This document shows positions 24,110 through 31,381 of a stretch of 32,257 nt of DNA, piece after piece. This stretch comes from a virus. A program made the position numbers and the translations under genes. The stretch is taken from positions 1 through 32,257 of IMG/VR virus record IMGVR_UViG_3300042569_001437; one strand, 5' to 3'. The notes below the pieces were generated by a model that saw nothing but the letters and a program-made list of their open reading frames with translations, had not been told where the DNA came from and searched no databases. Every line of letters starts with the position of its first letter. Positions within the stretch are counted from its first letter, which is position 1.

Positions 24110-25558
24110 TTACCAGCGCGCGGCTTGCGGCGCGGTTTTCCAAAGATCATTGAAAGTCGCTGTATTCGTGCCACCAACTGACACAATATTCCCCGGCTTT
24201 TGCACCGGCTTCTGCCGCACCCAAGGGCGGCTCATGCAGGCGTAACGGGCTTCATCCGGCGCGTGGTCTTCGCCGTCACTGTCCACATCTTCCGGTCTAT
24301 CCGGATCATGCTGCAACGCCGGCAGAGTGCGGATTAGGTCGCGGCATGTGCTGAATATCAGCAGGCCCGGCCCTGTTTCATCGCCGCGCAACCTGGCCCG
24401 CACCTGATCCCACCCGCCAAGCGCACCTTGGCGCGCGACGCGGGCATTATCGGCAGGGCGGAAGAACACCTTGGCCGAACGCGCCATGCGCTCGCCGATG
24501 CTAGGCCCACCGTCACTCGAAAAGATGGCCGGATCTGCCACGCCATGAAGGCCATTCTCAGGCTTAGGGTCGCCTGCCTCACGTTGCGCGATACCAAGCG
24601 CCACTTCCTCGGCAGTCATCCGCAAGCCCTCGTTTGGCTTGCCGGTGCTGCCATACCATTCCCGGTAGCGCACCAGCGCACCACGCGGGATGTCAGGCAA
24701 TTCGCCGTCAGACACGGCCCACCACCCGACACTGAAAGGCTTCGCGCTGCCCCAGTCCAATGACCGGAACCGGAACCAATGCTGAGGCAATTCGCGCGGC
24801 GCGATGACGTGCCGGCCCATGTCAAACTCGGGGAAGAACGCCCCGGCAATGACTGACCAATCGCCTTCTAGCCAAGCCCGCACCAATTCAGGCGAACCGC
24901 TTGCCCGCAACCGGGCCACATAATCATCCCCAAGGTGGCGATTATCGCCAACCCGCGACGGGATATAAACCCGCTCAAGGCCGCTCACATCATCCTTCAT
25001 GACGCGCCAGCCCATCGGCTCCGGGTCAATATAGCGCGCCCTTACCCATTGGTGCCCAGGCCCGCCCGGATTGCCCGTCAGCCTTATCCGGCACGGAACG
25101 CCCGCACCGCTTCGCAACGTGGCGAATAGCTTCAGGATCGGCGCCGGGCTTGGGAAATTGCCCGCCTCTTCCACATAAACCCGCGTGTAGCTGTGGCCCT
25201 GATAGCCCTCGGCGTCCGCGTCGCGCTCAAGATAGGCGAAACTCAGTCTTGCCCCGCCTGGCATCACGCATCGCATCGGGACGCTGGTAAATTGCGCGCC
25301 TATTGGGGTGAACAAGATTTTGGCGCGCTCAAAAGTCTCAGTCAATTCGGTCCTGGTGCGGCGCACCATCAGGCCGATAGCGTCTTTCTTGTAGCGATTG
25401 GCGTGTACCGCCCATTCGCCAAGCATTCCGTCAGTCTTGCCGCCGCCGCGCGCCCCACCGAAGAAAACCTCAAAGACCGGGCAGGTCAGCAGCGCCGTTT
25501 GCGGGCCTGCCTGGGGGCGCCAGACTACGCTTGGGGCGGCTGATGCTGCTTCGCCCAT
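24110..25558 (-). CDS. terL: Terminase large subunit
   Basis: This 482-aa ATPase/nuclease drives DNA into the prohead and cuts it at the end of packaging. Walker A is GGARGGGKTD (residues 34-43), Walker B is RVYVEEAG (126-133), and the coupling motif LTGNPGGPGH lies at 160-169. The RNase H-type nuclease has its acidic residues in SLDWGSAKPFSVGWW (D268), GVADPAIFSS (D342) and DHAPDEARYA (D435). The length is typical. It overlaps the small-subunit gene by 34 nt with a GGCGGAGGACG ribosome binding site inside it. All key residues appear intact. Confidence 0.95.
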   Translation of the reverse strand: MGEAASAAPSVVWRPQAGPQTALLTCPVFEVFFGGARGGGKTDGMLGEWAVHANRYKKDAIGLMVRRTRTELTETFERAKILFTPIGAQFTSVPMRCVMPGGARLSFAYLERDADAEGYQGHSYTRVYVEEAGNFPSPAPILKLFATLRSGAGVPCRIRLTGNPGGPGHQWVRARYIDPEPMGWRVMKDDVSGLERVYIPSRVGDNRHLGDDYVARLRASGSPELVRAWLEGDWSVIAGAFFPEFDMGRHVIAPRELPQHWFRFRSLDWGSAKPFSVGWWAVSDGELPDIPRGALVRYREWYGSTGKPNEGLRMTAEEVALGIAQREAGDPKPENGLHGVADPAIFSSDGGPSIGERMARSAKVFFRPADNARVARQGALGGWDQVRARLRGDETGPGLLIFSTCRDLIRTLPALQHDPDRPEDVDSDGEDHAPDEARYACMSRPWVRQKPVQKPGNIVSVGGTNTATFNDLWKTAPQAARW

Positions 25559-27571: not shown

Positions 27572-27768
27572 GCCTTGCGCTCCTGCCTATGGGCCGTCTT
27601 TTTCCATTTCTGAAATCGCTCCACCTTGCCGGCCAGATATTCCCGGTCTTCCTCAAGCGCGGCCTCGGCTATGCCCGCCTTGGTCCAGAACGCCATGCGC
27701 TCGGCATAGTCCTTGATGGCTTGGTCCGCGTGATAGGCGCCAATCTGCCGTGGCGTCATTTCCGCCAT
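27568..27768 (-). CDS. Small helical early protein, unknown
   Basis: The 66-aa reading starts at the ATG at 27768, preceded by GGGGGGCAAGCC. An upstream in-frame ATG would overlap the preceding gene by 58 nt. Helical segments are RQIGAYHADQAIKDYAERM and EALEEDREYLAGKVERFQ-like, with a very basic C-terminus (WKKTAHRQERK). No known domain. The basic tail could contact nucleic acid; this is speculative. Confidence 0.55.
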   Translation of the reverse strand: MAEMTPRQIGAYHADQAIKDYAERMAFWTKAGIAEAALEEDREYLAGKVERFQKWKKTAHRQERKA

Positions 27769-28181
27769 TGGCTTGCCCCCCGCTTGCCCGAATAGGTTGC
27801 ACCCTCGCGCCATAGCTTCGGCCCGGTGGATAGGTAGCCGGGCGGCAGGGGTGGCACTTCATCCTGCCGGCCTGCCGCGTCATACGCTTTGCACTCGGCC
27901 AGCCATGCGTCGAAAATTGCCTTTCGGCTTTCGTTTCGCTTTGTAACTCCTTCAGCCGGGACGGGACGGGACCGGGACATTCCCAACCCTGTCCCGGCGG
28001 GACATTGGACCCCCCCCTTTAGGGGGGGGGTTCCAAATTGTCCCGACTGCGGGGCATCAGCCGGGGGGTAATTGTCCCGATTTGTCCCGATTTGTCCCGG
28101 CAATGTCCCGGCAGAAACACCCCTAAAAAGAGGCATGTCATTACAATTTTGCATTGGTTTAGACCGCCCAAACTGTGTCAT
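27756..28181 (-). CDS. Protein downstream of the primase, start uncertain
   Basis: The C-terminal part (about 75 codons from the ATG at 27980: SRSRPVPAEGVTKRNESRKA) is clearly coding: IFDAWLAECKAYDAAGRQDEV and PPGYLSTGPKLWREGATYSG. From 27980 to 28181 the frame stays open but runs through a dense cluster of repeats and a long C/G hairpin with poor protein character, so the true start could be at 27980 (74 aa) rather than 28181 (141 aa). A GGGTTGGGA sequence precedes the 27980 ATG. Function is unknown. Confidence 0.5.
   Translation of the reverse strand: MTQFGRSKPMQNCNDMPLFRGVSAGTLPGQIGTNRDNYPPADAPQSGQFGTPPLKGGVQCPAGTGLGMSRSRPVPAEGVTKRNESRKAIFDAWLAECKAYDAAGRQDEVPPLPPGYLSTGPKLWREGATYSGKRGASQWRK
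27990..28004. repeat. Perfect palindrome TGTCCCG-G-CGGGACA
   Basis: Fifteen bases with 7-bp arms around a central G, containing the same TGTCCCG word as the nearby direct repeats. Further CGGGAC copies lie at 27957-27962, 27962-27967 and 27973-27978. This is a natural two-fold site for a dimeric DNA-binding protein. Confidence 0.8.
28005..28036. repeat. Long C8/G9 hairpin
   Basis: TTGGA + C8 (28005-28017), a TTTA loop and G9 + TTCCAA (28022-28036) form a stem of about 13 bp with one bulged base. It could extrude as a cruciform or fold in single-stranded DNA. It has no U-run, so it is not a normal terminator. It lies between the palindrome and the direct repeats beside the primase gene. Confidence 0.75.
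28037..28110. repeat. Iteron-like direct repeats of (A/T)TTGTCCCG(A/G)
   Basis: Five copies of a TGTCCCG word occur: 28037-28046, then 28071-28080, 28081-28090, 28091-28100 and the copy at 28103-28111. The middle three are head-to-tail at a 10-bp period, one turn of the helix, so bound proteins would stack on one face. The period is not a multiple of three, which argues against a coding cause. Arrays like this mark replication origins or operators. They lie 50-120 bp past the primase stop. Confidence 0.7.
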
Positions 28182-30171
28182 GATGCACCCCAATTTGTCC
28201 CTTTTGCGCAAGCCCATCGGCTGCCCGGTTGAAGGCTTTCTTCTTCGCCTCATGGCTATCTGCGGTTGAACGCGCAAAGAATGTCTCACGCCACGCTTGC
28301 TTGCTTGCCGCCACGGTCACGCCCGCTTGCGAGGCTTGGTAGGGGGGCTGGACGGGCTGTGTGGCCATCACGTCATGAAGGATGCGTAGCGCCATGGCCT
28401 CACCATTGGTGAGGCTCACACGGGCCTTGGCAGGGCCTTCCTCTGCCGGCTGCACCACGCATGAGGTGACGGGCTTGCCGCGCTGGTTTAGGCCTAACTC
28501 GACGCGGTGCAGGCTGAAGGTAAACGTGCCGTCAATCTCAAGCTCGCGCTGTTTGGTGACGCGGGCGGTTGACGGGCTATCGGCGTCGGGGCGGGAAATC
28601 TCTATCTCGGTGTCAGTCGCGGCGCGAAGTAGGCTATGGCCACGGGCGCCTAGGGCTTGATCCTTGCCGGAGTGATGCACCCAAGCAATATGCGCGCCGG
28701 TCACTTGGCGGATTTTGTCCGAATTAGCGACCAGCCGGCCCATATCTTCCGGGGAGTTTTCGTTGCCGCCCGCGATGGCTCGGCTGAGGGTATCCATCAC
28801 CACCAGGGCGACGGGCATTCCAAGCTTCGCAGCGGCTTCCTCAATCGCGGCTATCAGCCGGTCAGTGTCCGCCTCCGGGTCCAGGATATTCAGGGCGACC
28901 GGGATGATGGCGAACGGGATTTCCTGCCCGTCTAGGCCGTGATGAAGCGCGAAGGCTGCCACGCGGTTGCGGATGCCAAAGGCACCTTCAAGGGCGCAAT
29001 AGATCACCGCGCCTCGCGTCACGTCCCGGCCCCACCATTTCCAGCCAAGCGCGACATGCAAGGCCAGGTCGGCCATCAGGAACGTCTTGCCGCAGTTCGA
29101 CGGGCCATAAATGACTGACATCGCGGCCCGGATCAGCAGGCCCTCGACAAAATCATCGCCGGTAAGCGCGGGCTTGATGTCGCCAAAATAGACAAGCGGC
29201 AGGCCGGTCTTGTCTGGCGTGAAGCGTTCCACCTGCATGATGTCCGGCTCTATGTCCGGCTCTGCCCCCCAATGCTCGGGCACTTCTGTCAGGGGCGGCG
29301 GCTCGGGTCGCGTGGGGGCGTATTCTTCCACCACGCGACGGATAAGCCGGGGCGGCGCCTCGCGGGGCTTGGCCATGCCTGCCCGAAATGCCGCGCCAAG
29401 CGTTTTCTGCGCCGCCGGGTAATCCTCGCAGCGTGACGCTATGCCGGCCAATGCGGACGCCAGCGCGTGAAGCGCCGGGCCTTCCGCCAATTCACCCGCT
29501 GCGACCAGCCCGCCAATTGAAAACGCCGCCCGGTTTAAGGTGTCATGCTTGCCGCCGTCCGGGGCGCTCAGGATGGCCTGGCACTCATTGTCCAAGGCTT
29601 GCAAGCCGTAGCGCGTGCCGTCGCCGGATTGGCGGGGCGCGGGTAATGGCCTTGGCGCATCTGTGGCACGCGGCGCGGCAGGCGGGTCTATCAGGTCCAG
29701 CAACCATGCCGGCGCCTCTGCAAGCGCGCTGTGGTCGGCAATCTCGTAATCCGGGGAAGGCGGAGCAATTATGTATCCGCCGTTGCCCCGCACGTCCACA
29801 CCTGGGGCAATGCGTGACGCGCTGTTGCGGACGGTGCGGCCCTCTGGCCATTGGAAAAGAAGATGCTGCCCGCCGGATCGTGTCTTATGCGTCCGGGTCC
29901 GGGGAAGCCGGTGCTGGTTTGCCGCCAGCCATTCCAGGCCCTGCCCGCCGTTCTTAACGTCCAAGTCCACCACGAAAAAACCGGCGCCTTGGCCGGTCGG
30001 GACGCCGATCATGGCCGCGCCTGGGGTGCCGAATTGCGTCCGGATTTCTGCCGGGTCGCGCGTGGCGTCATGGAAGCCGTGTTGTGTCACGGGCCGCTTG
30101 TCCGGCCCACAGGCAAAGACCGGCAGGCGCATTTCTTCGGCAAGCCATAGGGCGGACGCTGTTAGGCTCAT
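28159..30171 (-). CDS. Bifunctional primase-polymerase / RepA-like helicase
   Basis: This 670-aa protein is the only large replication enzyme in the window. Residues 1-165 are a prim-pol domain: GAGFFVVDLDVKNG (D69, D71) and SGGQHLLFQWPEG (with H103), then GVDVRGNGGYIIAPPS. A linker leads to a RecA-like ATPase (AAA_25/RepA type). Walker A is GPSNCGKT (356-363), Walker B is LVVMDTLSRA (456-465), followed by WVHHSGKD (497-504) and GHSLLRAATD. A C-terminal segment (about 590-670) may bind DNA. It would open the origin, unwind and prime. It is joined to the preceding 47-aa gene by ATGA. A repeat cluster follows its stop. Confidence 0.9.
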   Translation of the reverse strand: MSLTASALWLAEEMRLPVFACGPDKRPVTQHGFHDATRDPAEIRTQFGTPGAAMIGVPTGQGAGFFVVDLDVKNGGQGLEWLAANQHRLPRTRTHKTRSGGQHLLFQWPEGRTVRNSASRIAPGVDVRGNGGYIIAPPSPDYEIADHSALAEAPAWLLDLIDPPAAPRATDAPRPLPAPRQSGDGTRYGLQALDNECQAILSAPDGGKHDTLNRAAFSIGGLVAAGELAEGPALHALASALAGIASRCEDYPAAQKTLGAAFRAGMAKPREAPPRLIRRVVEEYAPTRPEPPPLTEVPEHWGAEPDIEPDIMQVERFTPDKTGLPLVYFGDIKPALTGDDFVEGLLIRAAMSVIYGPSNCGKTFLMADLALHVALGWKWWGRDVTRGAVIYCALEGAFGIRNRVAAFALHHGLDGQEIPFAIIPVALNILDPEADTDRLIAAIEEAAAKLGMPVALVVMDTLSRAIAGGNENSPEDMGRLVANSDKIRQVTGAHIAWVHHSGKDQALGARGHSLLRAATDTEIEISRPDADSPSTARVTKQRELEIDGTFTFSLHRVELGLNQRGKPVTSCVVQPAEEGPAKARVSLTNGEAMALRILHDVMATQPVQPPYQASQAGVTVAASKQAWRETFFARSTADSHEAKKKAFNRAADGLAQKGQIGVHHDTVWAV

Positions 30172-30585: not shown

Positions 30586-30763
30586 TTTCAGAGCCGCGAT
30601 TGCCGCCCTTGGGCTATCGCAACGCGCGGCGGCAACGGCGCTTGAGGTGGACGAGCGCACGGTGCGGAAATGGGCGCTTGGTGAGCGCGCCATTCCAGGG
30701 CCGGCTAGGGTGGCGCTACGCTTCATGGCAGCGCTTCACAGTCCGGGCAATCGAAAGCAGTAA
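30572..30763 (+). CDS. Small HTH regulator, paralogue of the 25997 protein
   Basis: I take the GTG at 30572 as start (63 aa). The N-terminus ADFRAAIAALGLSQ then aligns residue for residue with MTPDQFRAALADLGYSQ of the gene at 25997. A longer ATG-started reading from 30542 would add ten residues with no match. The HTH is LSQRAAATALEVDERTVRKW with RAIPGPARVAL following. It is in plus orientation, opposite to its paralogue, and its 3' end overlaps the convergent gene at 30716 by 48 nt. It is a likely repressor acting at 30331-30347. Confidence 0.75.
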   Translation: MLAADFRAAIAALGLSQRAAATALEVDERTVRKWALGERAIPGPARVALRFMAALHSPGNRKQ

Positions 30764-31381
30764 ATCCCGAAACTCTGGCGGCGTGGCGTTGCGAATTGCC
30801 TTCTTGTGCTTTCCGCCGATCATGCTGACCATGCCCTTGCGGCGCGCGTATTCGTAGCCGTGGCGTTCCACCATCTTGGGGTCTAGGCGTTGCAAGCCCC
30901 GGCCCCAGCGAAGCGTATGCAACGGCAGATTGAAGCCCGGGTTGATCACTTTGCAGGCATAAAGCCATGTCGCCTTGCGCGCTAGGTGACCATAAAATCC
31001 CTGCTCGACGTAGCAGGTCAGCCCGCCAAATTCATCGGCGGCAATCCATCCCGGATAACCGCGTTTTGGTTTGCGTAATCCAAAGGCGTCCCACGCTTTA
31101 CTGTCGGCGGGATGCTCCAACACGCCGCCGTAAAGCCGCACCGCTTCAAGCGCCGCCGCAAAACACCCGCCATCATCCCCTAGCTTAAATTGATGCGGCT
31201 TGCGCGGGCTACCATGCCAGAAGCGCCCCCACCGCTCGCACGGCGGATGCGCTACAACGGGCCAAGGCCCGGCATATAACCGCGCATCGCGCGCCTGGTC
31301 CCATGGATCAACGCCGGGAAGGCCGTAATATGCGCCGCCTGGCTCGACATAAAGCGCAGCGATTGTGGAATGCTCAATCAC
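30716..31381 (-). CDS. Phage HPPC protein, possible DNA cytosine-modifying enzyme
   Basis: This 221-aa protein starts at a GTG (31381) overlapping the previous stop (GTGA). Key blocks are VVAHPPCERWGRFWHG (residues 42-57), GGVLEHPADSKAW (85-97), EQGFYGHLARKATWLY and TPPEFRDLLLSIAR. HPPC in a Rossmann-like setting resembles the catalytic PC motif of cytosine-5 methyltransferases, but the SAM-binding FxGxG motif is not obvious. I regard it as a known-looking phage family of uncertain chemistry. It pairs with a VRR-NUC nuclease gene. Its end overlaps the convergent HTH gene. Confidence 0.6.
   Translation of the reverse strand: MIEHSTIAALYVEPGGAYYGLPGVDPWDQARDARLYAGPWPVVAHPPCERWGRFWHGSPRKPHQFKLGDDGGCFAAALEAVRLYGGVLEHPADSKAWDAFGLRKPKRGYPGWIAADEFGGLTCYVEQGFYGHLARKATWLYACKVINPGFNLPLHTLRWGRGLQRLDPKMVERHGYEYARRKGMVSMIGGKHKKAIRNATPPEFRDLLLSIARTVKRCHEA

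Follow-up and report, generated by a model that had tools for sequence, protein, structure and literature searches.

In SaPI elements, the C-terminal domain of the Rep protein reads iterons that lie directly downstream (PMC7581432), and the rep-ori of a Gram-negative PICI supports plasmid replication (PMC6092414). A related arrangement is known from pRN1, in which a stem-loop on the 3' side of the prim-pol gene is required (PMC4234260). An iteron origin beside a self-loading initiator is a known kind. The repeat array described here is probably a phage replication origin of this sort, situated directly 3' of the gene for its initiator. This reading is proposed because of the layout of the array, the co-variation of its repeat word with the C-terminus of the adjacent replication protein, and the precedent of SaPI, Gram-negative PICI and pRN1.

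The whole stretch of DNA analysed, hereafter the window, is a 32,257 bp IMG/VR virus contig with a terminase gene at 24,113-25,558. The features of the array and its surroundings are as follows.

28159..30171, minus strand: replication protein of 670 aa, Prim-Pol / helical bundle / RepA-like helicase / predicted winged helix (Pfam, AF2 model)
29704..30153, minus strand: Prim-Pol (AEP) domain, residues 7-156 (Pfam PF09250, 1.6e-34)
28447..29184, minus strand: RepA/RecA-like helicase domain, residues 330-575 (AAA_25 PF13481, 3.8e-35, residues 340-506; AF2; Foldseek)
28162..28419, minus strand: predicted C-terminal winged-helix domain, residues 585-670 (AF2), the proposed reader of the repeat word
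27957..28110, minus strand: iteron array of 154 bp, directly past the stop codon of the 670 aa primase-helicase gene
28104-28110, 28093-28099, 28083-28089, 28073-28079, 28039-28045 and 27990-27996, gene strand: CGGGACA
27973-27979 and 27998-28004, plus strand: CGGGACA in the opposite orientation
starts at 27990, 28039, 28073, 28083, 28093 and 28104, plus strand: TGTCCCG, the plus-strand reading of the six gene-strand words
27957, 27962 and 27967 (span 27957-27972), plus strand: partial words, three overlapping CGGGAC
27990..28004, no strand assigned: 15 bp palindrome TGTCCCGGCGGGACA, made of two opposed words
28005..28036, no strand assigned: central hairpin, C8-TTTA-G9 on the plus strand, core CCCTAAAGGG on the gene strand
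27756..28154, minus strand: open frame of 132 aa that crosses the array, N-terminus 'M...LF', C-terminal part conserved among relatives

The array contains eight exact copies of TGTCCCG/CGGGACA. Along the gene strand, the stop codon is followed after approximately 48 bp by four CGGGACA words at 10-11 bp steps and by a fifth 34 bp further on, after which come the C9-TAAA-G8 hairpin (the sequence at 28010-28030 being CCCCCCCCTTTAGGGGGGGGG), the TGTCCCG-C-CGGGACA palindrome and an opposed TGTCCCG/GTCCCG group. An earlier sequence-only reading of the window had reported the repeat cluster, the palindrome and the C8/G9 hairpin, and its coordinates and words were found to be correct. It had counted five TGTCCCG where the plus strand carries six, and the 10 bp spacing that it described is present as steps of 10, 10 and 11 bp at 28073-28104. 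The best 7-mer of the array, at eight copies in 154 bp, compares with a mean of 2.4 and a maximum of 5 in 2000 dinucleotide shuffles, none of which reached eight. When 1460 segments of 154 bp were scanned over the contig, at least five copies of a 7-mer were present only in those overlapping the array. Folded as single-stranded DNA, a 171 nt stretch yielded -56.3 kcal/mol against -34.2 ± 3.3 kcal/mol for shuffled sequence (z -6.65).

In the AlphaFold2 model of the 670 aa protein, residues 187-267 form a four-helix bundle and residues 270-324 a disordered linker, and the C-terminal domain, at approximately 585-670, is separate. Modelled alone, the C-terminal domain adopted a winged-helix topology with a pLDDT of 84. 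Its structural neighbours were winged-helix chains at Z of about 8-9, including the MCM C-terminus, ORC and CRP; Foldseek matches were weak (best E 0.08), and no credible match came from searching PDB sequences with a profile of the C-terminus. For the helicase part, RSF1010 RepA was the only solved relative by sequence (1g8y, E 4e-4) and was among the top Foldseek matches by fold (1nlf, E 2.8e-10). The replication block also encodes a 221 aa protein of PHROG 12600, of unknown function (30716-31381, minus strand), for which no relationship to the single-strand binding protein of Roseobacter phage CRP-823 was detectable.

Homologues obtained from viral, genome and phage searches ranged from 95% to approximately 25-30% identity and represented 163 distinct non-redundant loci. 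A locus was scored as carrying an array when one 7-mer was present at least four times within 250 bp downstream of the helicase stop codon. The sequence-only reading had pointed to related phages as the place to look for the repeats; among related phages and mobile elements, arrays were found at 84% of the 163 loci, compared with 3-6% for control regions (gene end, upstream and +600 bp). The best 7-mer averaged 6.9 copies downstream of the stop codon and 2.2-2.3 in the three control regions, and at other places in array-bearing loci at least five copies were reached in just 18 of 3391 segments. Every close relative whose sequence extends to the array has kept it, and an array follows the replication gene in distant lineages that include phages, prophages, plasmids and phage satellites.

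The repeat word is lineage-specific, with 37 classes among 131 loci. Examples are CGGGACA, CCGGACA, GGAGACA, ATCGGGG, TGTCGGAA, CCGACGC, ATGTGAA and CGTACCA, and among named phages GCGTGACA in Rhizobium phage 16-3, ACTACAAA in CRP-823 and TGTATAAA in Roseobacter phage CRP-821. While the words differ, a central hairpin of the CCTWWAGG type recurs across lineages: the core CCCTWWAGGG was present in the downstream region of 69 of the 163 loci, compared with 1/163, 0/150 and 0/131 controls, and the looser CCWWWWGG in 95 of 163, against 20, 2 and 4. A tally of word orientation (550 vs 193) was discarded, the better orientation having been picked for each locus, which biases the count. In one marine group (L068-L085), closely related to the CRP-type protein (57-60% identity to CRP-821, for example in L070-L085) and with a similar C-terminus, no array was found behind the gene. 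The origin of this group must lie elsewhere or be differently built.

The word changes together with the C-terminal domain of the replication protein. Among pairs with helicase identity of at least 90%, C-terminal identity was 0.90 where the word was the same (n = 223) and 0.57 where it was different (n = 40), and the observed partial correlation between word and C-terminus was reached in none of 500 Mantel permutations. When near-identical helicases were clustered, a difference in word was present within 8 of the 22 clusters. The loci L039 and L044 are 91.7% identical over 5,572 bp, up to a point 97 codons before the stop codon; the following 427 bp, comprising these last 97 codons and 137 bp past the stop, are unrelated, and beyond them 90% identity resumes over 5,880 bp. 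Within 11.8 kb around the gene no other segment is replaced, and CGGGACA gives way to TGTCGGA as the word. Same-word control pairs retained 88-100% identity across the corresponding stretch, with no dip. What has been exchanged between L039 and L044 is, as judged from the alignment, exactly the predicted winged helix and the array. Between CRP-823 and CRP-821, the N-terminal primase part and the helicase are 98-99% identical and the tail 67%, and the word is changed throughout the array; all ten copies of ACTACAAA in CRP-823 lie within the array. From L188 to L190, copies at matching positions share a single base change (CGTACCA to CGTAACA). Parsimony gave 44 word changes on the C-terminal tree and 49 on the helicase tree, a weak discrimination. 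Taken together, these data suggest that the putative winged helix and its target array, side by side in approximately 430 bp, are inherited and exchanged as one specificity cassette.

Further variation was seen in two sets of loci. The pair L183 and L185, with C-termini 93% identical, was rejected as a case of word change, both arrays sharing a mixed GT(A/C)GGAA word. The array of L185 (downstream positions 29-239) is approximately 98 bp longer, with GTCGGAA copies ahead of an array of the L183 type, possibly as the result of a recent array duplication or recombination. The proteins of L033, L035, L038 and L105 are 71-83% identical to the window protein (up to residue 376 for L033, L035 and L038); their C-terminal half is unrelated, and their word differs (ATCGGGG). 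This pattern is a second, deeper kind of apparent module exchange.

If the array is an origin, the 7 bp words would be bound by the winged helix at the C-terminus of the Prim-Pol/RepA-like protein, with words in both orientations on either side of the centre serving to assemble the RepA-like hexameric helicase and load it. The region at the central hairpin would then be opened and primed, with replication starting nearby. An origin had been put forward in the sequence-only reading, and the proposal is well supported by the presence of the array behind the replication gene in distant lineages and from the co-variation of its word with the predicted C-terminal winged helix. GC skew, suggested at the same time as a line of evidence, adds no support: in neither CRP-823 nor CRP-821 does the skew turn at the array, its detrended minimum lying in a region of divergent transcription, and the linear contig of the window had no clear turn.

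Because co-variation identifies the binder and not its purpose, an autoregulatory operator is retained as a candidate, albeit an unlikely one. In that case the array would be bound by the replication protein's own winged helix, which would control the downstream gene or genes, without any origin function; the coupling of word and C-terminal domain would fit this as well. In the lineage of the window, moreover, the inverted words overlap the upstream part or internal start codons of the next frame. The array, however, keeps its place behind the helicase gene, downstream and not upstream of it, even where the genes that follow differ by lineage; a promoter/terminator scan found no promoter-like site in 27600-28500, and the experimental precedents for such a layout are origins.

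An operator array for another HTH protein, of phage or host, had been given equal weight in the sequence-only reading and is now disfavoured. The separate HTH/wHTH proteins of CRP-823 and CRP-821 are 92-98% identical although the word of the whole array has changed, and nothing else was replaced between L039 and L044 in the 11.8 kb spanning the gene. Such an operator is thus very improbable, even though 10 bp phasing of words is typical of operators and HTH genes lie nearby in relatives. To a similarly small degree of probability, the array might act at the RNA level, as a stem-loop in the transcript serving as a terminator, attenuator or RNA-processing site. An element of this type would predict neither 10 bp direct repeats in one arm nor the coupling of word to winged helix; the gene strand near the array has no T-run terminator, and an Rfam search returned no match. 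The hairpin does lie on the gene strand between genes, and its fold is strong, the z-score of -6.65 having been computed for DNA.

The open frame across the array is continuous in the window and in 21 close relatives, beginning just past the primase stop codon and closing with a tail that is conserved. Within the array, pN/pS was 1.03 and pS 0.20, compared with 0.66-0.69 and 0.39-0.47 outside, and in the alignment of close relatives the word columns were more conserved than the remaining array columns. The words occupy several codon phases, a 1 bp insertion within the hairpin of the close relative L034 shifts the frame, and 36 of 137 arrays have no covering open frame. Because pN/pS in the array is 1.03 and pS is low, the constraint appears to act on the DNA word and not on the peptide; at the level of sequence the DNA word is what is kept, the open frame being tolerated or secondary. 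The earlier view that the repeats are not accounted for by coding agrees with the pN/pS value and the several codon phases, with the amendment that the array does sit inside a continuous open frame. That the array is merely part of a downstream gene, as this continuous frame might suggest, is the least probable explanation and, on the substitution pattern, codon phases, L034 insertion and arrays without a frame, already largely refuted.

In the window (27756-28154) and in the relatives L005-L030, the frame through the array opens with a conserved short motif, for example NQLSLF or MPLF. We take this motif to resemble a beta-clamp-binding motif, and it might serve in recruitment of the host clamp near the candidate origin.

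In plasmids and satellite-like elements, word arrays also lie behind the genes of RepA-like helicases that are not fused to a Prim-Pol. Examples include Methylobacterium plasmid pMRAD08 (word GACCGGAC), a plasmid of M. currus with a separate Toprim primase (word CGCAACA, CCCTATAGGG present) and Xanthobacter (CGGGACA and CCCCTTTAGGGG). Two are satellite-like: a 17 kb element of K. pneumoniae with capsid genes (L225, pKp_Goe_795-4; word TGCCGCA), and one of E. coli that carries genes for integrase, AlpA, SSB and capsid (L231, p1RM9154-C1, 34138-35738; word AAGTGAG). The array therefore belongs to the helicase/winged-helix unit. No comparable array was found for the related helicase domains of Salmonella phage Jersey, Escherichia phage Bas72 and Mycobacterium phage Acadian. 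The hairpin was also considered as a Prim-Pol-specific start site and rejected, the 8 nt start site of the NrS-1 Prim-Pol, 5'-TTTGGTTA-3' (PMC8718748), being unlike the CCTTTAGG core. Since the hairpin occurs in the M. currus element with its Toprim primase, and since the NrS-1 site differs, it is not tied to Prim-Pol.

In the open-licence papers searched, no described origin was found for this phage family and no description of a phage Prim-Pol/RepA-like/winged-helix fusion with a constant hairpin, many private words and cassette exchange. Whether a large family of proteobacterial tailed phages, phage-plasmids and satellites shares one replicon design, with an exchangeable winged-helix/array cassette in 37 word classes to date and a constant hairpin, is in our estimation evenly balanced. 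If they do, cassette exchange would let related phages change the identity of their origin while keeping the replisome, with a possible gain such as avoiding cross-firing with co-infecting relatives or satellite parasitism.

Several known replicons share parts of this design. The alpha protein of phage P4 has primase and helicase parts together with a winged helix for binding repeats in the origin (PMC4234260). The alpha primase is of the bacterial Toprim type, whereas the primase here is a Prim-Pol. The origin layout of P4 also differs from the array described here. In SCCmec, the C-terminal domain of Cch2 is by itself able to bind repeats that lie downstream of the gene for Cch2 (PMC7581432), but unlike the present system Cch2 has a D5-type helicase, a separate A-family polymerase primase and three iterons only. 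RSF1010 (IncQ) has a RepA-family helicase in common with the window, and its oriV contains iterons and hairpin primase (ssi) sites, as the array contains iterons and a hairpin. RepA, RepB' and RepC of RSF1010 are, however, three separate proteins, of which RepC binds the iterons, whereas here the predicted winged helix is fused to the helicase; no match to the RepC family was found among the subset of window proteins scanned.

ORF904 of pRN1 and phage BIP-1 likewise combine prim-pol, helicase and winged helix (here predicted) in a single protein. On the 3' side of the gene lies a large stem-loop whose sequence varies, comparable to the fold at z -6.65 in the window. Their helicase is of SF3, in contrast to the AAA_25/RepA-like motor, and iterons, the main feature of the present array, were not found there by the authors. 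There is a close likeness in layout to the rep-ori of SaPI and PICI (SaPIbov1, SaPI5 and EcCICFT073), in which an initiator helicase carries a C-terminal DNA-binding domain, predicted also here, and the 3' end of its gene is directly followed by iterons with element-specific words, arranged in sets on either side of a centre (PMC7581432, PMC6092414). That centre is AT-rich in SaPI and PICI, whereas here the iteron sets flank a GC-rich hairpin of the CCTWWAGG type. C-terminal recognition of iterons, a trait of SaPI and PICI, is suggested here by the strong co-variation and the winged-helix prediction. The SaPI Reps are DUF927/D5-type helicases, in place of which a RepA/RecA-like motor (AAA_25) is here fused to Prim-Pol, in tailed phages. 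Among phage-plasmids and the tailed phages of Alphaproteobacteria, a layout close to the SaPI type but built around an unrelated motor is widespread.
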